From contig JACRGQ010000071.1 of the NCBI GenBank assembly GCA_016217735.1, positions 1 to 43,911 of the forward strand: a DNA stretch of 43,911 bases, written 5' to 3'. This document shows, one piece after another, positions 22,726 to 33,798 of the stretch. The notes under the pieces are model-generated. The model was not told where the DNA came from. It saw nothing but the letters and a program-made list of their open reading frames with translations, and ran no database searches. Source of the DNA: Nitrospinota bacterium (GTDB taxonomy: Bacteria; Nitrospinota_A; UBA7883; JACRGQ01). Position 1 is the first letter of the stretch. Each line of letters begins with the position of its first letter. A program made the position numbers and the translations under genes.

Positions 22726-23496
22726 TTATACATCGTGCAATTCGCCGGGGTGGTCCTGCCGCGCTATCTCGCATTTTATTTTGTGCCCCGCCGCGGCGAA
22801 AAAGCTGTCGGCCCCCACGCGGACGAGGTTGGGGTTATTATTCTGCCTGCTCAGGTGGGCGAAGATGACGGTATTGAGGCCGTCCCCCGCCGCGTCCGCC
22901 AGCAGGGCCATGCAATCGTCGTTGGAGAGATGCCCCAGTTTGCCGGCGATGCGCTGTTTCAGCGGCCAGGGGTAGGGGCCGATTTTCAGCAGCTCCGGAT
23001 CGTGATTGCTCTCCACCAGCGCGAGATGCGCCAAGCGGAACTTTTCCACGGCGCGCACGGTAACGTGCCCCAGATCGGTCATTATCAGCGCGCGGCGGCC
23101 GCCGCATTCGCCCAGGTATGCCACCGGCTCGGCGGCGTCGTGCGGGATGGCAAAGGGGTGCAGCGTGATGTCCCCCACGGTGAACGGCTCATCGGGGGTG
23201 ACGGTCTCAAGCCGCCCCGCTTTTTCCAGTTGCCCGTTGGCGGCCAGCGCGGTGCCGCGCGTGAGGTACAGCGGTATCCCGTACCTGCGCGAAAAAAGCG
23301 CCGCGCCCCGGATGTGGTCGGCGTGTTCGTGGGTGATGGCGATGGCTTTGATGTCCCCCGGCTCGAAGCCGATCCGCTTGAGGCGGTTTTCCAGTTCGCG
23401 GCAGGCGAAACCGGCGTCTATCAGCACGGCGCTGGTATCGCTGTGGACGAGGATGGCGTTCCCCTCGCTGCCGGAACCGAGCACGCAAAGCTTCAT
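22726..23496 (-). CDS. MBL-fold metallohydrolase, YycJ/WalJ type
   Basis: 256 residues: MKLCVLGSGSEGNAILV at the start, then the metal motif THEHADH, the second-sphere IPHDAAEPVAYL, MTDLGHV, ESNHDPELL and FAHLSRQNN. This layout is the single-domain YycJ/VicX group of metallo-beta-lactamase-fold proteins, thought to be phosphodiesterases or nucleases acting on nucleic acids. The start overlaps the stop of the upstream gene by four bases (ATGA), and purB follows closely. Confidence 0.9.
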   Translation of the reverse strand: MKLCVLGSGSEGNAILVHSDTSAVLIDAGFACRELENRLKRIGFEPGDIKAIAITHEHADHIRGAALFSRRYGIPLYLTRGTALAANGQLEKAGRLETVTPDEPFTVGDITLHPFAIPHDAAEPVAYLGECGGRRALIMTDLGHVTVRAVEKFRLAHLALVESNHDPELLKIGPYPWPLKQRIAGKLGHLSNDDCMALLADAAGDGLNTVIFAHLSRQNNNPNLVRVGADSFFAAAGHKIKCEIARQDHPGELHDV

Positions 23497-24437
23497 CTCT
23501 CGCCGCCGTTTTCGTACATGTGGTAAAGCAGCGGCAGCAGCAGCTCGTGGTGGCCGATGACGCGGTACCCCTTGCCGCCGGTGGTGACCGGGCGGTAGAC
23601 CACGTTCACGCCGGGGCGGTAGTGCATGATCATGTCGAAATCGACGGCGGTGAAATCGCGCACGTCGCCGCCCAGATTGCGGGCGGCGGAAAGCGCCTTG
23701 ATGAAAATTTCGGGCAGGATGACGGCGGAGCCGACGTTGAAGTAACAGCCGCCGCCGGTGAGCGTTTTAAGCATCGCGGTGAAAACGCGGAAATCGTCGA
23801 AGCTTTTTTCGCCGATGAGCGCGCCGTCCGTTTGCGGATGGATGTGGGTGATCTCGCAGCCGATGGCGGCGTGGACGGTTGCCGGTATCCCCTTGGCGGC
23901 GCAGGCGGCGAGGATGCTCTTGTCCGCGTGCGGCATTTTTTTGTCGAGGATGTATTGGCCGATGCACTGGCCGAAGCCCGTCTCCGGGTAGGCGCGCAAC
24001 GCCTCCATCGTCATGGCGGCGGTCTCCTCCACCATGCCGAAGCGGCCGGTTTTCACTTCTTCCTCCACGTCCTCGCTGGTCTCGCCGATGAGGGCGATCT
24101 CAAGGTCATGCACAGCTCCCGCGCCGTTCATCGCGATGCCGGTGATGACGCCGCGCCCTATCCAGTCGATGAGGATGCTGGAGCAGCCGGCCTTGATGAC
24201 GTGCGCGCCGATGGCGAAAATGACCCCTTTGCCGTGCTTGTGCGCGGCCCGCAGGTGGCCGGTGATGGCCTTGAAGTCCGACGCCTTGAGCTGCCTCGGC
24301 AGCAGGTCGGCGATGTTTTTCGATGCGCGGTAGCCGTCGACGTTGGCGAAATCGGCGATTTTCACTTTATTCGTCCGCTGGGCGATGGGGTAGCTGGTGA
24401 TCTTCCCGAAATCGGCCCGCTCATGTTTTTTCGTCAT
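23493..24437 (-). CDS. Deoxyhypusine-synthase-like protein
   Basis: 314 residues. The middle section GVIFAIGAHVIKAGCSSILI, GRGVITGIAMNGAGAVHDLE and ETSEDVEEEVKTGRFGMVEE, and the end GYRVIGHHELLLPLLYHM, resemble the deoxyhypusine synthase superfamily, a Rossmann-like NAD-binding fold. The segment holding the substrate lysine of true deoxyhypusine synthases (WGK) is not obvious, and bacteria lack eIF5A. The reaction is probably different, perhaps homospermidine synthase-like or another NAD-dependent transfer. It is the first gene of the purine operon as far as visible. Confidence 0.6.
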   Translation of the reverse strand: MTKKHERADFGKITSYPIAQRTNKVKIADFANVDGYRASKNIADLLPRQLKASDFKAITGHLRAAHKHGKGVIFAIGAHVIKAGCSSILIDWIGRGVITGIAMNGAGAVHDLEIALIGETSEDVEEEVKTGRFGMVEETAAMTMEALRAYPETGFGQCIGQYILDKKMPHADKSILAACAAKGIPATVHAAIGCEITHIHPQTDGALIGEKSFDDFRVFTAMLKTLTGGGCYFNVGSAVILPEIFIKALSAARNLGGDVRDFTAVDFDMIMHYRPGVNVVYRPVTTGGKGYRVIGHHELLLPLLYHMYENGGER

Positions 24438-24494: not shown

Positions 24495-25100
24495 TTAATG
24501 CCGATCAAGAAATGCCTCGATTTCTTCCGCTATTTTGGCGCGGGATTTTTTATTGTCTTTGAGTTTAGCCGCCCATGCCCTGCCCGGATGCAGAATATCC
24601 CACGGACTATTTTGTTGATTGTGCCGCCCCGAACCCGGGTCGTGGTTTCCAAAACCATCCACCACTTTGTTCCAAAGGGGTGAAAATTTCTCGATCAAGA
24701 GGGATTCGCCCAGCGGAATCCAAATATCGTCAACAGCCAAGTATCTGCAAAAAAAGTCTTTTGCATCGAGGTTTTCAGCGTCTTCAATGGATGCAAGATG
24801 TTCCTGCAACCGTTTAAACAAAACGTTCCCCGGCTGCTCATCCAAGCCGAAGCCCCCTTTCCGGGCTCCGGCGGGAACGGCCTTGCCCACATAGATGGGC
24901 CAATCGAATTTCCTGTTTTTATTTTTCGCCGATATCCGTTTATAGAGGGGAAAATTTCCCGCATAGTAGATTGCGTAAACACCCGCCCCATCGAATTTCA
25001 GGACATCCTTCAATTGATGGGCTTTCTGCTCAAGAAGGGCATCGGCGACGCTAAGCCCCAAGTTTTTTTTATCAAGTGGATTAAATGGTTTGTCGTTCAT
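24495..25100 (-). CDS. Eco29kI-like GIY-YIG restriction endonuclease
   Basis: 201 residues. The GIY-YIG core is GVYAIYYAGNFPLY...WPIYVGKAVPAGARKG, followed by LFKRLQEHLASI with the catalytic Arg region. The C-terminal block CRYLAVDDIWIPLGESLLIE, LWNKVVDGFGNHDPGSGR and SPWDILHPGRAW is characteristic of Eco29kI. Eco29kI cuts CCGCGG; the same specificity here is inference. It lies 7 bases after its methyltransferase and looks intact. The sequence appears less GC-rich than its neighbours, which suggests transfer. Confidence 0.88.
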   Translation of the reverse strand: MNDKPFNPLDKKNLGLSVADALLEQKAHQLKDVLKFDGAGVYAIYYAGNFPLYKRISAKNKNRKFDWPIYVGKAVPAGARKGGFGLDEQPGNVLFKRLQEHLASIEDAENLDAKDFFCRYLAVDDIWIPLGESLLIEKFSPLWNKVVDGFGNHDPGSGRHNQQNSPWDILHPGRAWAAKLKDNKKSRAKIAEEIEAFLDRH

Positions 25101-25107
25101 ACGTCAT

Positions 25108-26277
25108 TCAATTGTGTCCGCGAAGCAGGGATGCCACGCTTTCCGCCACCGCCTGCCCCAGCCTTACCGGAACGGCGTTACCAATCTGACGCATCGACTC
25201 CGTCCATGTGCGGGGGAACAGGTATTTGTCCGGGAAGGTTTGCAAGCGCGCGGATTCCCTCACCGTGAAATAGCGCACATCGCCGGAAGGCAAGACCATC
25301 ATGTTTTCGCCCCCCGGCACACCATGATCCCCGGCCTTAAGGGTTTTCGCGGGTTCATCAAGGGGGCTGCCTGTATGCCCCGGATAGGTTTTCGCCCCAT
25401 CGTTAAAAACATGGTTGGGAATTGTCCGCGCTTCTTTCGCGCGGGGATCGGGAAGGCCCGCGATGGCGTCCCGCACCGTGGCCCAAGGTTTCAGGGTTGG
25501 CCCAAACAGGCGGGATTCCATTCGCCGTATTTTGGGGGCCAATCTTTTATCCATCCGCGGAATGTGGCGGGAGGAAACGCCATGCCGTTTCCAGTAAGCT
25601 CCGCTGATCCACTGGTCAAACAACAACGCATCCTGTGAATGTGTCGGCGCCGGAAAATTCCACTCAAGGTCGATATCGGCGCGAACCGCCACAAAAAACA
25701 CCCGTTCCCTTTTTTGGGGAACACCGAAATCCGCGGCGTTTAAAAGGCGGAAAAGGACTTTATAAGAAACGTCTTTCCGCCGGGATTGGGTGTGATGCCT
25801 TTCAAGGCGCGATAGATGTTCTTCCCAGCCCTCTTCCCGTTTTGCCGCCAAAAAGGGATAGGATAACTGAAGAACGATATACTCAAAATATTTCGAAAAG
25901 GCGGGCCGAAGGAGTCCTTTGACGTTTTCAAAAATGACCGCTTTCGGTTGCAGTTCCCTCACCGCCCGAACCGCTTCCGGGAATAAATCACGGCGGTCAT
26001 TGAACCCCCTATGTTTTCCGGCGAGGGAGAAGGGCTGGCACGGGGGGCCTCCCGCGACAAGGGTTATTTCGCCGTTCAGCGCGGAATAATCAAATTTCCT
26101 CACGTCATGCTGGAAAATAGGCCATGCGGCAACCGGCTTCACGCCCCTTTTTTTATTTTCCCGCAGGGTCTCGCATGAATCGGCATCGTATTCAATGACC
26201 GCCTTGTGGCTGAACCCGGAGTTGGAAACCCCCATCGCCAAACCACCGGCCCCGGCAAACAGTTCGATTGAATTCAC
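25108..26277 (-). CDS. DNA cytosine-5 methyltransferase (partner of the Eco29kI-like enzyme)
   Basis: 389 residues from GTG 26277, immediately after the vsr stop codon. C5-methyltransferase motifs in order: I ELFAGAGGLAMG, IV GGPPCQPFSLAG (nucleophile Cys), VI ENVKGLL, VIII near QKRERVFFVAVR, and IX/X in ARLQTFPDKYLF and QIGNAVPVRLGQAVAES. The target-recognition part lies between VIII and IX. It protects host DNA from the downstream nuclease. No controller protein gene is present. Confidence 0.95.
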   Translation of the reverse strand: MNSIELFAGAGGLAMGVSNSGFSHKAVIEYDADSCETLRENKKRGVKPVAAWPIFQHDVRKFDYSALNGEITLVAGGPPCQPFSLAGKHRGFNDRRDLFPEAVRAVRELQPKAVIFENVKGLLRPAFSKYFEYIVLQLSYPFLAAKREEGWEEHLSRLERHHTQSRRKDVSYKVLFRLLNAADFGVPQKRERVFFVAVRADIDLEWNFPAPTHSQDALLFDQWISGAYWKRHGVSSRHIPRMDKRLAPKIRRMESRLFGPTLKPWATVRDAIAGLPDPRAKEARTIPNHVFNDGAKTYPGHTGSPLDEPAKTLKAGDHGVPGGENMMVLPSGDVRYFTVRESARLQTFPDKYLFPRTWTESMRQIGNAVPVRLGQAVAESVASLLRGHN

Positions 26278-26700
26278 TTACCGCCCCAAGAAATTGAGAA
26301 CTTTTTTCTTCATTGAACCACTGTTATCAATCTCGCATGTCCAAATAGTTAGTGCCATCCACCCCATGCGTTTAAGCATCTTCATATTATACCCGTCCCG
26401 CTTTTTATTTCCCTCCAATTTTGCGCGCCAGAATTTTCGCCGGGCATGGGGAAGCCGCCGCCCGTCCGCGCAGTTATGCCTGTGCCAAAAACAACCGTTT
26501 ACAAATATCACCTTTTTCTTTTTGGCGAAGACCATATCGGGCGTACCGGGCAGTTTTTTCACATGCAGCCGGTATCGATAACCCAAGGAATGGACAAGGC
26601 GGCGGACGGCCAGTTCGGGTTGGGTATTCCTGCTTTTCACCTTGCCCATTAAGCGGCTTCGCTCTATCGGGGATAAGGGGTCTGATCTTTTTGGCGGCAC
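26278..26700 (-). CDS. vsr: Very-short-patch mismatch repair endonuclease
   Basis: 140 residues from GTG 26700. The family start ERSRLMGKVKSRNTQPELAV, the catalytic Asp in LPGTPDMVFAKKKKVIFVNG and the metal/DNA motif GCFWHRHNC are all present. Vsr nicks T:G mismatches that arise by deamination of 5-methylcytosine, so it protects sites modified by the methyltransferase encoded directly after it (TAA-GTG abutting). It is the first gene of the vsr-MTase-nuclease unit. No ribosome site is evident. Confidence 0.93.
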   Translation of the reverse strand: MPPKRSDPLSPIERSRLMGKVKSRNTQPELAVRRLVHSLGYRYRLHVKKLPGTPDMVFAKKKKVIFVNGCFWHRHNCADGRRLPHARRKFWRAKLEGNKKRDGYNMKMLKRMGWMALTIWTCEIDNSGSMKKKVLNFLGR

Positions 26701-26785: not shown

Positions 26786-28159
26786 ATGGGAAATTACGAA
26801 GCGGCGGTGCTTATCGTCGACGATGACGAAGTGGCGCTATTGACGCTGGGCAGCATTCTCAAGCTGGAAGGCTTTCAGGCTCTCACCGCCCGCAACGGAC
26901 TTGAGGCGCTCAATGTCCTGGAGCGGGAAAGCGTGGATATGATTATCGCCGACCAAAAAATGCCCCATATGGACGGTCCGGGACTGCTCAAAGAGATGAA
27001 GAAGCGGGGAATTTCCCTGCCGTTCATCATGCTGACCGGCCACGGCACCATCGATATGGCGGTCGCCATGATGAAGGATGGCGCCACCGACTATATGATC
27101 AAGCCGTTTGAACCGCTGGCGCTGGTGGCGGCCGTCCGCCGCAACCTGGAATTCCGGCGGCTGAATGAAGAAAACGTAAAACTCAAAAGCCAGCTAAAAG
27201 AACAATACAGCTTCCACAATATCGTCACGCAGTCCGCCCTGATGAAACGGGTGCTGGAAACAACCGAAAAAGTGGCCGCCGCCCTCAATACCACCGTGGC
27301 GATCTACGGGGAAAGCGGCACCGGCAAAGAGGTGCTGGCCCGCGCCATTCACTTCTCCGGCCCCCGCATGGCGAACAACTTCGTGGCGGTGAACTGCGCC
27401 GGCATCCCCTCCACTCTGCTGGAATCGGAGCTATTTGGCCACGTCAAAGGGGCATTCACGGGGGCGGACCGCGAACGGGACGGCAAGTTCGGCCTAGCGC
27501 AGAAAGGAACCATCCTGCTCGATGAGATCGGCGATATGCCGATGGACCTGCAGGTGAAGCTGTTGCGGGTGTTGCAGGAACGGGTATACGAAAAAGTCGG
27601 CTCCAATCAGCCGATAAAGGCCGATTTCCGGATTATCGTGTCGACCAACCGCAATTTGGAGGAAATGGTTGGACGGGGAAGTTTCCGGGCCGACCTCTTC
27701 CACCGCATCAGTTCGTTTCCGATAACGCTGCCGCCGCTGCGCGAGCGGAAAGAAGATATCCCGCTGCTGGCAAGACACTTCCTCGATCACCTGCGGGAAG
27801 AACTGGGAAAGCCGCTCCCTGGCCTTTCGGAGAAGGCGATGGAAAAACTGCTGGGGTACGGATGGCCCGGCAACATCCGCGAACTGAAAAATTGCCTTGA
27901 ACGGGCCGCCATCCTCACCGAAGGCGAGTTGATCCAGCCGAAACACCTCATCATCAACGAAGATAATGACCGCGCCGCGCCCGGCGGAAGCCGGCCCGGC
28001 CATGTACATCTTGTGATAGACCTCCCCGAAGAAGGGTTTTCAATGGAAAAGGTTACGGACGAAGTGCTGAAGCTGGCCCTTGAAAAATGCGGCGGCAACA
28101 AATCAAAAGCAGCCGACTTGCTAAAACTGGACCGGAGCATCTTTTACCGCCGCCTCTAA
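26786..28159 (+). CDS. NtrC-family sigma-54-dependent response regulator
   Basis: 457 residues from ATG 26786, with GGGGGA five bases before it. The receiver domain (about 5-120) has the acidic pair in LIVDDDEVALL, the phospho-Asp in MIIADQKMPHMDG and the Lys in MIKPF. The AAA+ domain has Walker A GESGTGKEVLARAIH, the sigma-54 contact loop GAFTGA and Walker B ILLDEIGDM. A C-terminal Fis-type helix-turn-helix is NKSKAADLLKLDRSIFYRRL. It activates sigma-54 promoters when phosphorylated. Its kinase is not adjacent, and a fitting -24/-12 promoter lies 115 bases downstream of its stop. Confidence 0.95.
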   Translation: MGNYEAAVLIVDDDEVALLTLGSILKLEGFQALTARNGLEALNVLERESVDMIIADQKMPHMDGPGLLKEMKKRGISLPFIMLTGHGTIDMAVAMMKDGATDYMIKPFEPLALVAAVRRNLEFRRLNEENVKLKSQLKEQYSFHNIVTQSALMKRVLETTEKVAAALNTTVAIYGESGTGKEVLARAIHFSGPRMANNFVAVNCAGIPSTLLESELFGHVKGAFTGADRERDGKFGLAQKGTILLDEIGDMPMDLQVKLLRVLQERVYEKVGSNQPIKADFRIIVSTNRNLEEMVGRGSFRADLFHRISSFPITLPPLRERKEDIPLLARHFLDHLREELGKPLPGLSEKAMEKLLGYGWPGNIRELKNCLERAAILTEGELIQPKHLIINEDNDRAAPGGSRPGHVHLVIDLPEEGFSMEKVTDEVLKLALEKCGGNKSKAADLLKLDRSIFYRRL

Positions 28160-28195: not shown

Positions 28196-28241
28196 TACCG
28201 CACTATCACGTTTTTACCGCACAATTTAAGATGCAGTAAAA
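28196..28241 (+). promoter_or_regulatory. Putative activator-binding array (UAS)
   Basis: Direct repeats TACCGCACTAT (28196-28206) and TACCGCACAAT (28215-28225) are 19 bases apart. TTTTACCGCA (28212-28221) also forms a near-perfect dyad with TGCAGTAAAA (28232-28241). The array lies about 60-105 bases upstream of the predicted start of the sigma-54 promoter, where NtrC-type activators bind. Confidence 0.45.
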
Positions 28242-28273
28242 TTATATATAGCTGATTTATCTATTATTACAAT

Positions 28274-28288
28274 TGGCACAGATTATGC
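28274..28288 (+). promoter_or_regulatory. Sigma-54 (-24/-12) promoter
   Basis: TGGCACAGATTATGC: the -24 GG and -12 GC are separated by exactly 10 bases and the -24 block TGGCAC is consensus. The -12 block is ATGC instead of TTGC. The predicted start is near 28300. An A/T-rich tract and possible activator sites precede it. Confidence 0.65.
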
Positions 28289-28325
28289 TAATTACTAAGC
28301 ATAGGTTGTAGGAGTCAGGCAGTAA

Positions 28326-28379
28326 ATGACAAAAAAGATTTTTAAGTTGTTTGTTGCATTGGTTTTGACCGCCCATTAA
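28326..28379 (+). CDS. 17-residue signal-like peptide in a short sigma-54 transcript
   Basis: ATG 28326 to TAA 28377-28379 encodes MTKKIFKLFVALVLTAH: a Lys-rich start and hydrophobic core like a signal peptide or a tiny membrane peptide. GGAG at 28311-28314 is 11 bases upstream, a little far. The ORF sits between a sigma-54 promoter (start about 28300) and an intrinsic terminator at 28387-28435, so a transcript of roughly 135 bases is predicted. It could be a small membrane peptide, a leader, a regulatory RNA with an incidental ORF, or the remnant of a truncated secreted-protein gene. Function unknown. Confidence 0.4.
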   Translation: MTKKIFKLFVALVLTAH

Positions 28380-28386
28380 ACACGTT

Positions 28387-28435
28387 AAAAAAACGGGGGG
28401 TTTTCCCCTCCCCTCCCCTTTCCCCCCGTTTTTTT
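28387..28435. terminator. Terminator-like structure with a polypyrimidine loop
   Basis: AAAAAAACGGGGGG (28387-28400) pairs with CCCCCCGTTTTTTT (28422-28435) across a C/T-only loop of 21 bases. T residues follow on the plus strand and A residues precede, so it may work in both directions. It separates the sigma-54 mini-transcript from the FN3 gene and begins a nearly pure pyrimidine tract to about 28466. Confidence 0.6.
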
Positions 28436-28510
28436 CTTTTTCCCTTCCCTTTCCGCTTTTTCCCCGTTTTGCTATAGTAAGCGGTGAGTTCTTTCGCCAA
28501 AGGGGGGATC

Positions 28511-31500
28511 GTGATCAAGAAAAGTTGTTTTGCCGCCATTTTCCTGTTTGCCGCCGCCGGGGCATTTGCCGACACGGACACTCCGCCCACAGCGGTTGAA
28601 GCAACGCCGGAAGAGGTGGCTCCGCCAGCGGAAGCGAAGCCAGCAAAAGCTGCGGCACCGCCGGAAGAAGCGAAGCCGGTCGAAGCCCCCGCCCCGAAAT
28701 TCGGATCCCTTGCCATCATCTCCACCCCTGCGGGAGCCGCCGTGCTTCTGGACGGCAAACCGGCAGGAAACACGCCGTTGGTGGCCGAACAGTTGACTCC
28801 CGGCGAACATATCATCCAAGTGAGCAAAGAAGGGAGCATCGGCCATACCCAGGCCATAACGGTCACCGCTGGAGCCCGCGCCGATGTGGCGGTAACGCTC
28901 AAGCCGAAGGAAGAAGAGGACAAAGCCCCCCCGCAGATCATCCATACCGTGGGACAAAAACCGCGCGAAGGACGCTCCTACACGGTACGAACCTCCGCGC
29001 GCGACAACAAAGGGGTCAAGGAGGTTTTTCTCCACTTCCGCGCGAAGCAGGCCGGAGGAGACTACGTTAAAAGCCCCATGTTCAAGCTGGCGGAAGGCCT
29101 CTACGAAGGGGTGGTTCCCAGCAACTTCGTAAAAGGGAGCACACTGCAATATTATCTGGGCGCCGTGGATGCCGCCGGGAATATTGGACTGGATGGCACC
29201 CCGGAATCGCCGTATGAGATGGCCATCCAGGCACTGGACAAAGAACCGCCGTCAATCATGCACGAGCCGGCAAAAAACATCTCCGATGCCTCTGAACTGG
29301 TTATATCAGCTAAAGTGCTGGATAACTCCGGAACCGCCACCGCCCAGTTCGCCTACCGGAAAGCGGGAGAAAAAAACTTTGTGAAAGAGGTCCGGCCCGC
29401 CACCGCCAACGGCGCGGCTTCCCTCAATATCCCGGCGGCGATGATGGGCGGCAACGCGGTTGAATACTACATTGAGGCATGGGACGAGGCGGAAAACCGC
29501 GCAACCGCCGGCTCCGCCGAAAAACCGCTCTCCATCGAAATATTAAAAGTAAAGCCCTATGCCGAAGGAATGGTGATCGAACGCAAAGAAGGGGCCAAAG
29601 AGGCGGTTATCAATATCGGCTCGCTGGATGGCCTGAAAAAAGGGGATGTGCTGAACGTTATCCGGGCCGATGAAAAAATCGTCGACCAGGCGACCGGGCA
29701 GATACGCCACATCAAGCAGGTTGCCGTGGGAAAAATCAAGGTCACGGCCCTCACCCCGAAGACCGCCACCGTGGAAGTGACCGCGGAGATCGCCCCTGAA
29801 AAAATCGTTGCCAACCAGCCCACCCAGTTGGTGCGCCTGCGCTGCGGCCCTGTGGGCGGGATCACCGCCACTTCCACCAAAATCCGCGCGGTCGATCTTG
29901 CCTGGATGCCGGCCAAAGAGCCCGAAGCGGCCGGCTATATCATCTACCGCGGCGAAACGCGGGAAGGGAAATACGCCATCATCGCAACGCTCAAAGGGGC
30001 CGAAACCGCCGCCTACGCCGACACCGACAGCAAGGCGAGCCCGATCAACGATGAAACAACCTACTATTACAAAGTGGCCGCCGTTAACGCCGAAAAGGTG
30101 GAAGGTCTCCCTTCTGAACCCGCGGCGGCAACCACCAAGGGAGGTCCCGCCGCCCCCGCCGCCTTCAAGGCGGTTTCCAATGAAATCCTCCAAGTGACCT
30201 TCAACTGGACCAAGCCGTCCGATCCGGAAACCGCCGGCTATATCCTCCAAAAGGCCGATACGGAAGACGGCAAGTTTACCGATGTACTTTCCATAAAAAG
30301 GGGGGAAGACCTCCAGGCCGTGCTTAAAGCATCCAAGGAAACGCCCTTGGAAGATGGCCGCGCCTATTACTACCGGCTGCTCGCGGTGAACAAGGTGGGG
30401 AAAGCGGGTAAACCGTCCGCCACGGTGGCCGCCACCACCCATCCGAAGCCGGAAGCCCCGGCCGCGCCGCGCATCGCCAAAGAGTTCGTCCGCAGCATCT
30501 CCCTCAACTGGGATCAACATCCCGACAAGGACGTCGCCGGCTATCTGGTCTACCGGCAGGACGCGCCGGGGGGCGAATTCAAGAAAATCGGCGAAACGAA
30601 GGAACGCGCGGCAACCGCCTTGACCGACAAGGGGAACCACCTCAAGGATGGCGCCGAATACCACTACGCGATTTCCGCATACCTCAAAGGGGGAGCCGTG
30701 GAAAGCCCCCTCTCGCAAGCCGTAAAGGCCGCCACCTTCGGCCCGCCCGAAACCCCGCGGGACTTTAAGGCAAGCGCCGGAAAATTCCGCGAAGTGCAAT
30801 TGACCTGGACGCCCATCAAGCAAGAGGATATCGCCGGTTACGAACTGTTCCGCGACGCCGATGGAAAAAAACCCGAGTCGATAAAAAAACTTCCCGGGCG
30901 TGACGTGGCCGCCTACACCGACAAGGGAGGGGTGTTTGGCGCGCTAAAGGACAACGCCGCTTACCAATACCGAATTGCCTCGTATAACGTGGCCGATGTG
31001 CCAAGTGCGCAGTCGGAGCCGGTGACGGGCGTTACCAAGCCGTTGCCCGCCAAACCGGCCGGCCTTGACGGAACCAGCGGCGAAGTGAAGCGGACATCCC
31101 TTAAATGGAACGCCAACGCCGAAAAAGATATCAAAGAATATCTAGTCTACCGAAGCATGAACGCCGACAAGGGCTTCTCCCCGGCCGGAAGCGCGAAAGA
31201 AACCTCTTTCACCGCCGGCAAACTGGAAGACGGCGCAACATACTACTTCCGCGTGACGGCGAAAGATACCGACGGATTGGAAAGCGAACCGTCGGATACC
31301 GTCAACGTCGCCACCAAGCCGCTGCCAGCGGCTCCCGGCGCCCCCGCCGCCACGGCGGAACAGACCGTGGCCGGCCTTTCCTGGAACCCCTCCCCCACCG
31401 GCGACGTGGTGAAATACAACATCTACAAAAAAGGATTTTTGGGCGGGTCGATTGCCGGAACGGTCACGGATACGTCTTTCACGGTGAAAGACCTCAAAGC

Positions 31501-31594
31501 GGATTCTTCCTACACGTTCTATGTTACGGCGGTCGATTCCACCGGGCTTGAAAGCAAGCCCTCAGCCGCCGTTGACGTAAAAACGCCGAAATAA
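28511..31594 (+). CDS. Secreted PEGA/fibronectin type III multidomain protein
   Basis: 1027 residues from GTG 28511, preceded by AGGGGGG. A signal peptide IKKSCFAAIFLFAAAGAFA is followed by a Pro/Glu/Ala/Lys-rich linker (about 22-62) and a PEGA domain (about 65-130; GSLAIISTPAGAAVLLDGKP). Two Ig-like repeats follow (APPQIIHTVG..., EPPSIMHEPA..., each ending in a VEYYIEAWDEAENRA-type strand), then a small domain around GSLDGLKKGDVLNVIRADEK. Six fibronectin type III repeats of about 95 residues fill the C-terminal half, each with an AGYxxYR and a YYYKVAAVN-type strand. It is a cell-surface or periplasmic scaffold and probably binds glycan or protein. A possible -10 TATAGT lies at 28473-28478. 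Confidence 0.85.
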   Translation: MIKKSCFAAIFLFAAAGAFADTDTPPTAVEATPEEVAPPAEAKPAKAAAPPEEAKPVEAPAPKFGSLAIISTPAGAAVLLDGKPAGNTPLVAEQLTPGEHIIQVSKEGSIGHTQAITVTAGARADVAVTLKPKEEEDKAPPQIIHTVGQKPREGRSYTVRTSARDNKGVKEVFLHFRAKQAGGDYVKSPMFKLAEGLYEGVVPSNFVKGSTLQYYLGAVDAAGNIGLDGTPESPYEMAIQALDKEPPSIMHEPAKNISDASELVISAKVLDNSGTATAQFAYRKAGEKNFVKEVRPATANGAASLNIPAAMMGGNAVEYYIEAWDEAENRATAGSAEKPLSIEILKVKPYAEGMVIERKEGAKEAVINIGSLDGLKKGDVLNVIRADEKIVDQATGQIRHIKQVAVGKIKVTALTPKTATVEVTAEIAPEKIVANQPTQLVRLRCGPVGGITATSTKIRAVDLAWMPAKEPEAAGYIIYRGETREGKYAIIATLKGAETAAYADTDSKASPINDETTYYYKVAAVNAEKVEGLPSEPAAATTKGGPAAPAAFKAVSNEILQVTFNWTKPSDPETAGYILQKADTEDGKFTDVLSIKRGEDLQAVLKASKETPLEDGRAYYYRLLAVNKVGKAGKPSATVAATTHPKPEAPAAPRIAKEFVRSISLNWDQHPDKDVAGYLVYRQDAPGGEFKKIGETKERAATALTDKGNHLKDGAEYHYAISAYLKGGAVESPLSQAVKAATFGPPETPRDFKASAGKFREVQLTWTPIKQEDIAGYELFRDADGKKPESIKKLPGRDVAAYTDKGGVFGALKDNAAYQYRIASYNVADVPSAQSEPVTGVTKPLPAKPAGLDGTSGEVKRTSLKWNANAEKDIKEYLVYRSMNADKGFSPAGSAKETSFTAGKLEDGATYYFRVTAKDTDGLESEPSDTVNVATKPLPAAPGAPAATAEQTVAGLSWNPSPTGDVVKYNIYKKGFLGGSIAGTVTDTSFTVKDLKADSSYTFYVTAVDSTGLESKPSAAVDVKTPK

Positions 31595-33105: not shown

Positions 33106-33798
33106 ATGCCAATGAAAAAAAAGCCCCTGGCCACCGGCCGGATCCGCCCGGCCACCTTTGCCCCCTACATGCCGGCGGGAGTTATTGAAATCGGCGAACT
33201 GGAAAAGCTGGTTGCCCGATTGAAGGAATCCGGCGCGGAAAAAGTGAAGTTCGGCGGCGAGATGGTGTTCGTTTGGGAAGGGCATGAACGCCCGCACGAT
33301 CCGGCTCCCGGCTATGAATCGAACAACTTTAAAGCGCCCCGCGTCCGCCCCGTGCGGCTCTGCAGCGCGGAGGTGTTCTGCCAGCGCTACAAACGCCCGG
33401 TGCTGGCCTTGGCGCGGGAGATCGACAAACGGTTCCGCGGAACCCCCCTGCCGGTCAAACTGCACATCGGCATCGCCGGCTGCCCGCGGAGTTGCAGCGA
33501 GCCGGCGGTGAAAGACATCGGGATCATCGCGCACAATCAGGGGTACGAAATCCTGCTGGGCGGTTCGGCGGGTCTTGGCCCGGTGCTGGCCCAGAGCGCC
33601 GGCCTTGCCAACGACGAAGAGGCGGTGCTCGCCGTGATCAAACGGGTCATCACATATATGCAGGAGGGCGGCAAAAAAATGCGGCTTGGACGGCTTATCG
33701 CCAAAATCGGCAGGGAGCGTTTCCTCGAAGAGTCGGGCCTTGCCACGCTGCTGCTGCCGTGGCAAACCACAGATGAAGAAGGTTCGGACGCGGAATAG
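33106..33798 (+). CDS. Small nitrite/sulfite reductase-like siroheme and 4Fe-4S protein
   Basis: 230 residues, about the size of single-domain assimilatory-type or small sulfite reductases. The N-terminal half is a ferredoxin-like substrate domain (RPATFAPYMPAGVIEIGELE). The cofactor half has VRLCSAEVFCQRYKRPVLAL (Cys-x5-Cys) and GIAGCPRSCSEPAVKDIGII (Cys-x3-Cys), the four cysteines that hold a 4Fe-4S cluster bridged to siroheme, then ILLGGSAGLGPVLA. Such proteins reduce sulfite or nitrite or act as redox modules. The electron donor is unknown. ATG 33106 or 33112 could start; no ribosome site is present. Siroheme could come from the Met8-like enzyme at 39203. Confidence 0.85.
   Translation: MPMKKKPLATGRIRPATFAPYMPAGVIEIGELEKLVARLKESGAEKVKFGGEMVFVWEGHERPHDPAPGYESNNFKAPRVRPVRLCSAEVFCQRYKRPVLALAREIDKRFRGTPLPVKLHIGIAGCPRSCSEPAVKDIGIIAHNQGYEILLGGSAGLGPVLAQSAGLANDEEAVLAVIKRVITYMQEGGKKMRLGRLIAKIGRERFLEESGLATLLLPWQTTDEEGSDAE

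Follow-up and report, generated by a model that had tools for sequence, protein, structure and literature searches.

A probable sigma-54-dependent small RNA gene downstream of an NtrC-type regulator gene in uncultured Nitrospinales

The spacer between a gene for an NtrC-type response regulator and a gene for an exported FN3/PEGA protein in an uncultured member of the Nitrospinales carries a candidate sigma-54-dependent transcription unit with a predicted small RNA (sRNA) as its product. This locus lies within a 44-kb window, by which we mean the whole stretch of DNA that was analyzed, and the source contig is part of a 2.5-Mb metagenome-assembled genome (MAG). We compared the source genome (G000) with three other species of its genus (G001, G002, and G003), all uncultured Nitrospinales and all represented by MAGs of 78%–98% completeness; the relatives include Nitrospinales bacterium nzgw267 and nzgw266. 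The original prediction for this DNA had described a GG-N10-GC promoter, repeats, a dyad, a 17-codon open reading frame (ORF), a terminator, and an activator gene, and all of these are present where it had placed them. The features of the locus are as follows.

26786..28159, plus strand: gene for the NtrC-type response regulator, the predicted activator (Pfam: receiver, sigma-54 AAA+, and Fis-type helix-turn-helix domains)
28196..28222, plus strand: upstream activator element, direct repeat TACCGCAC-N11-TACCGCAC, full sequence TACCGCACTATCACGTTTTTACCGCAC, conserved in four species
28212-28221/28232-28241, strand not assigned: partial dyad TTTTACCGCA/TGCAGTAAAA, a 90% inverted repeat that overlaps the second direct repeat
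28274..28288, plus strand: sigma-54 (-24/-12) promoter TGGCACAGATTATGC, GG-N10-GC, with orthologous sites at the same place
28299..28435, plus strand: predicted sRNA of ~137 nt, starting ~12 bases past the -12 GC and ending at the conserved terminator
28326..28379, plus strand: 17-codon ORF MTKKIFKLFVALVLTAH, unlikely to be a conserved gene (G002 and G003 lack it, and the ORF in G001 is unrelated)
28387..28435, plus strand: intrinsic terminator with C-rich loop UUUUCCCCUCCCCUCCCCUUU, the candidate pairing region, conserved
28467..28479, plus strand: extended -10 element TTTTGCTATAGTA, a probable independent FN3 promoter, 100% identical in four species
28511..31594, plus strand: exported protein gene with PEGA/FN3/FlgT_C domains (Pfam), the downstream neighbor

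Syntenic order was maintained in all four species, running from the regulator through the upstream sites, the -24/-12 promoter, a short body, the C-rich-loop terminator, and TTTTGCTATAGTA to the FN3/PEGA gene. The regulator carries a GAFTGA loop at residue 222, and all three genus relatives have an ortholog with 86%–88% identity. From what is known of the NtrC family, we infer that this regulator is the activator of the neighboring -24/-12 promoter. RpoN is encoded in all four genomes. In G003 (G003:C128:11438-11930, L202), the DNA-binding domain of RpoN is divided between two reading frames, which may be an assembly error.

The promoter and its upstream element showed conservation in both sequence and position. 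Orthologous promoter sites in the three relatives (TGGCACGCATAATGC, TGGCACGCATCATGC, and TGGCACGTATCGTGC) occupy the same position, with pairwise identities of 73%–93% and GG/GC spacing kept in all four species, and in each relative the promoter is the top sigma-54 match within its locus. On its own, the promoter match is unremarkable within the window, where two further sites score equal to TGGCACAGATTATGC. When the 230-bp spacer behind the regulator was shuffled 3,000 times, the score of TGGCACAGATTATGC was equaled in 15 shuffles; the orthologous spacers, treated likewise, contain higher-scoring sites that were equaled in only 3–10 of 3,000. The two copies of the direct repeat, TACCGCACTAT and TACCGCACAAT, begin at 28196 and 28215, and the upstream element as a whole has pairwise identities of 78%–85%. 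In every species, the distance from its start to the -24/-12 site is exactly 78 bp, whereas the DNA separating the two has a pairwise identity of just 39%–57%. Conservation of the promoter at fixed spacing in four species is well beyond chance, and these conserved islands at a fixed distance amid diverged DNA are the main evidence for a functional promoter and activator site. The original prediction had proposed looking for the -24/-12 site in relatives, and in this respect it is borne out in all four species.

Searched with up to three mismatches, the composite upstream element matched once each in G000 and G002. The extra matches in G001 and G003 were weak, three-mismatch ones, and no regulon was evident from them. 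For the partial dyad, clear conservation of the right arm was not found in the genus relatives.

At the other end of the unit, the terminator has a fully paired stem of 14 bp (28387-28400/28422-28435), a loop of 21 nt, and a T7 tail. Its pairwise identity is 73%–98% across the four species, each of which has a C-rich loop of 20–21 nt and one copy of the terminator pattern per genome. Outside the genus, the terminator was not found in other relatives; the one match to a wide terminator pattern, in G021 (L206), has no repeated C-rich loop. Conservation thus supports the originally predicted arrangement of a sigma-54 promoter and upstream activator sites beside an NtrC-type gene, with a short terminated transcript.

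Between these conserved ends, the predicted RNA diverges in sequence and in length, with lengths of 108, 109, and 170 nt in the relatives and no ORF conserved at the sequence level. The predicted layout is a 5' hairpin, an A/U-rich linker, and the terminator with its long C-rich loop. The G002 and G003 RNAs share the same hairpin fold, with single-sided pair changes, and a long hairpin is also predicted in G000. No Rfam family matched the RNA at gathering score, and we took the sub-threshold hits as chance.

We also considered relatives beyond the genus. G011 belongs to the same class, and its regulator ortholog is 57% identical. At this locus (L066), the best sigma-54 site within 8 kb lies 126 bp after the regulator, and TTTTTACAACACAC lies 67 bp upstream of that site; the genus half-site, TTTTTACC, is at 63 bp. 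Behind the sigma-54 site is an 82-residue ORF resembling Frankia_peptide/Nif11-like proteins (47.0 bits, one below the Pfam cutoff). The position of the G011 site before a small ORF suggests that the logic of an adjacent target is older than the RNA. We note that the G011 locus has TTTTTAC half-sites and a long GC-rich leader on the 82-residue ORF, and that it is a possible sigma-54-controlled ribosomal peptide locus. In G007, G008, G018, and G019, no such site was seen.

We consider it probable that the unit is a sigma-54-dependent sRNA gene under the control of the NtrC-type regulator encoded immediately upstream. The active regulator would bind the TACCGCAC repeats ~80–100 bp upstream of the start and, once bound, would drive RpoN polymerase at TGGCACAGATTATGC. 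The product would be a noncoding RNA of ~137 nt (108–170 nt in relatives), whose C-rich terminator loop may pair, independently of Hfq, with G-rich mRNA sites that resemble Shine-Dalgarno sequences. We infer all three components of this scheme, namely RNA production, activation by the regulator, and Hfq-free loop pairing. The pairing step is suggested by analogy with RepG, an sRNA described below. Hfq had no match in the four genus genomes, which as MAGs are 78%–98% complete, and a role as an Hfq-dependent sRNA was rejected on this ground. The loop complement, AAGGGGAGGGG, is mildly enriched in the source genome, with 15 occurrences compared with 6 for the reversed control, mostly within coding sequence.

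Several observations weigh against an sRNA gene of this kind. The RNA body is poorly conserved (pairwise identity 17%–72%), folding z-scores relative to shuffles are weak (-0.4 to -1.8), and covariation is limited to single-sided changes in two sequences. The promoter in G011 precedes a small protein gene rather than an sRNA. On the side of targets, no specific G-rich site stands out, the 11-mer complements of the loop lie mostly inside coding sequence, and the FN3 leader is not an outlier, pairing with the RNA no better than several unrelated leaders. A broader proposal, which we regard as tentative and rather unlikely, is that this Nitrospinales sRNA acts without Hfq through its 20–21-nt C-rich terminator loop, that it is the one strong target of an NtrC-type regulator dedicated to it, and that G-rich ribosome-binding sites across the genome are thereby placed under sigma-54-gated control.

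It is very unlikely that the transcript instead acts as an mRNA encoding a tiny membrane peptide (from 17 codons here), as the original prediction had allowed. The ORF opens with an ATG that has AGGAG, a plausible ribosome site, ~12 bases before it, and the encoded sequence is hydrophobic and resembles a signal; G001 has a 22-codon ORF in its place with a similar LTxTA(D/H) tail. However, the G001 ORF is unrelated, the two existing peptides have in common only DNA that is conserved beside the terminator, and there is no comparable closed ORF in G002 or G003. ORF length and sequence are not kept, whereas the promoter and terminator are, and we rejected the micropeptide for this lack of conservation.

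Equally improbable, in our assessment, is that the transcript is a leader of the FN3/PEGA gene, with attenuation or read-through at the terminator. This gene is invariably the next one in the genus, with its start ~75 bp past the terminator, and G001 and G003 have orthologs of 77%–78% identity in the equivalent position. Yet the perfect stem and T7 tail have no evident antiterminator, and no Rfam leader family matched. The extended -10 element between terminator and gene is invariant, while its flanks diverge among the four species, and the FN3 gene therefore probably has its own promoter. With a strong conserved terminator and this element intervening, the suggestion that the FN3 gene is a read-through target is not supported.

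There is also little to recommend the view that the promoter is a relic from a time when the regulator activated a gene for a small protein, with only the promoter and terminator persisting. The 82-residue ORF behind the G011 sigma-54 site and the divergence of the RNA body agree with it, but the exact upstream spacing and a near-identical terminator loop have been kept despite strong divergence, which implies that the transcript is still under selection. Likewise very unlikely is a role of the RNA as a decoy, whether for CsrA in the manner of RsmY/RsmZ or, like CrcZ, for an Hfq/Crc-like protein: all four genomes encode CsrA and the genomic arrangement equals that of cbrB-crcZ (PMC8871633), but the GGA motifs are not conserved (1, 1, 0, and 0 in the four transcripts), their absence from two species led us to reject the CsrA decoy, and Hfq was not detected.

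Two further observations concern the surroundings of the unit. On the minus strand, genes for an Eco29kI-type restriction endonuclease and a C5-cytosine methylase (24495-26700) lie between the gene at 23493-24437 and the regulator. In G003 and G002 these two neighbors are directly adjacent, so the restriction-modification module appears either to have been inserted recently or to have been lost from the relatives. Downstream, a short NIR_SIR-domain protein gene (33106-33798, 230 residues) is kept beside the FN3 gene and a gene for a 431-residue unknown protein in the genus.

Small RNAs beside response regulator genes have been described in several bacteria, and we compared the sRNA unit with these systems. 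In Pseudomonas, CrcZ is transcribed from a separate, directly activated sigma-N sRNA gene downstream of the NtrC-type regulator gene cbrB, with multiple upstream subsites (PMC8871633, PMC6296734). The Nitrospinales unit likewise lies downstream of an NtrC-type regulator gene and has a sigma-54 promoter and multiple upstream subsites. Unlike CrcZ/CbrB, it has a shorter RNA with no evident A-rich Hfq/Crc motif array, Hfq was not detected, the regulator has no adjoining kinase gene, and no sequence relation was found. In Vibrio, the sigma-54 sRNA gene qrr1 is divergent from luxO, 151 bp upstream of it (PMC8043402). In both units a sigma-54 sRNA gene, predicted in the present case, lies next to that of its NtrC-type response regulator, but the regulator here scores 340 bits on the LuxO model, for which the cutoff is 800, and the RNA has no Rfam Qrr match.

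The loop has its own parallels. Anti-Shine-Dalgarno sRNAs with CCUCC-type loops include the rhizobial "cuckoo" RNAs such as NfeR1. These share with the predicted RNA a C/U-rich loop complementary to ribosome-binding sites, but here there is a single C-rich loop, within the terminator. We know of no sigma-54 involvement in the case of RepG. This Helicobacter pylori sRNA is encoded beside an orphan response regulator gene and uses a C/U-rich terminator loop as its pairing region (PMC8295292). The Nitrospinales RNA resembles it in its position next to a response regulator gene and in its C/U-rich terminator loop, which is kept in four species, and differs in that its regulator is of another type and no RepG-type target was found.

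No paper on small RNAs and sigma-54 in Nitrospinae turned up in our literature search. The arrangement equals that of cbrB-crcZ and resembles that of luxO-qrr1, and membership in both fails on the features tested, which makes the unit a new example of a known circuit. The original description of an undescribed regulatory unit therefore applies to the sequence, which has no Rfam family, but not to the kind of circuit. If the sRNA reading is correct, the circuit of a sigma-54 regulator beside an sRNA gene known from Vibrio and Pseudomonas would extend to Nitrospinales that apparently operate without Hfq, and the terminator loop may be, after RepG, a second case of such a loop serving as the pairing region.
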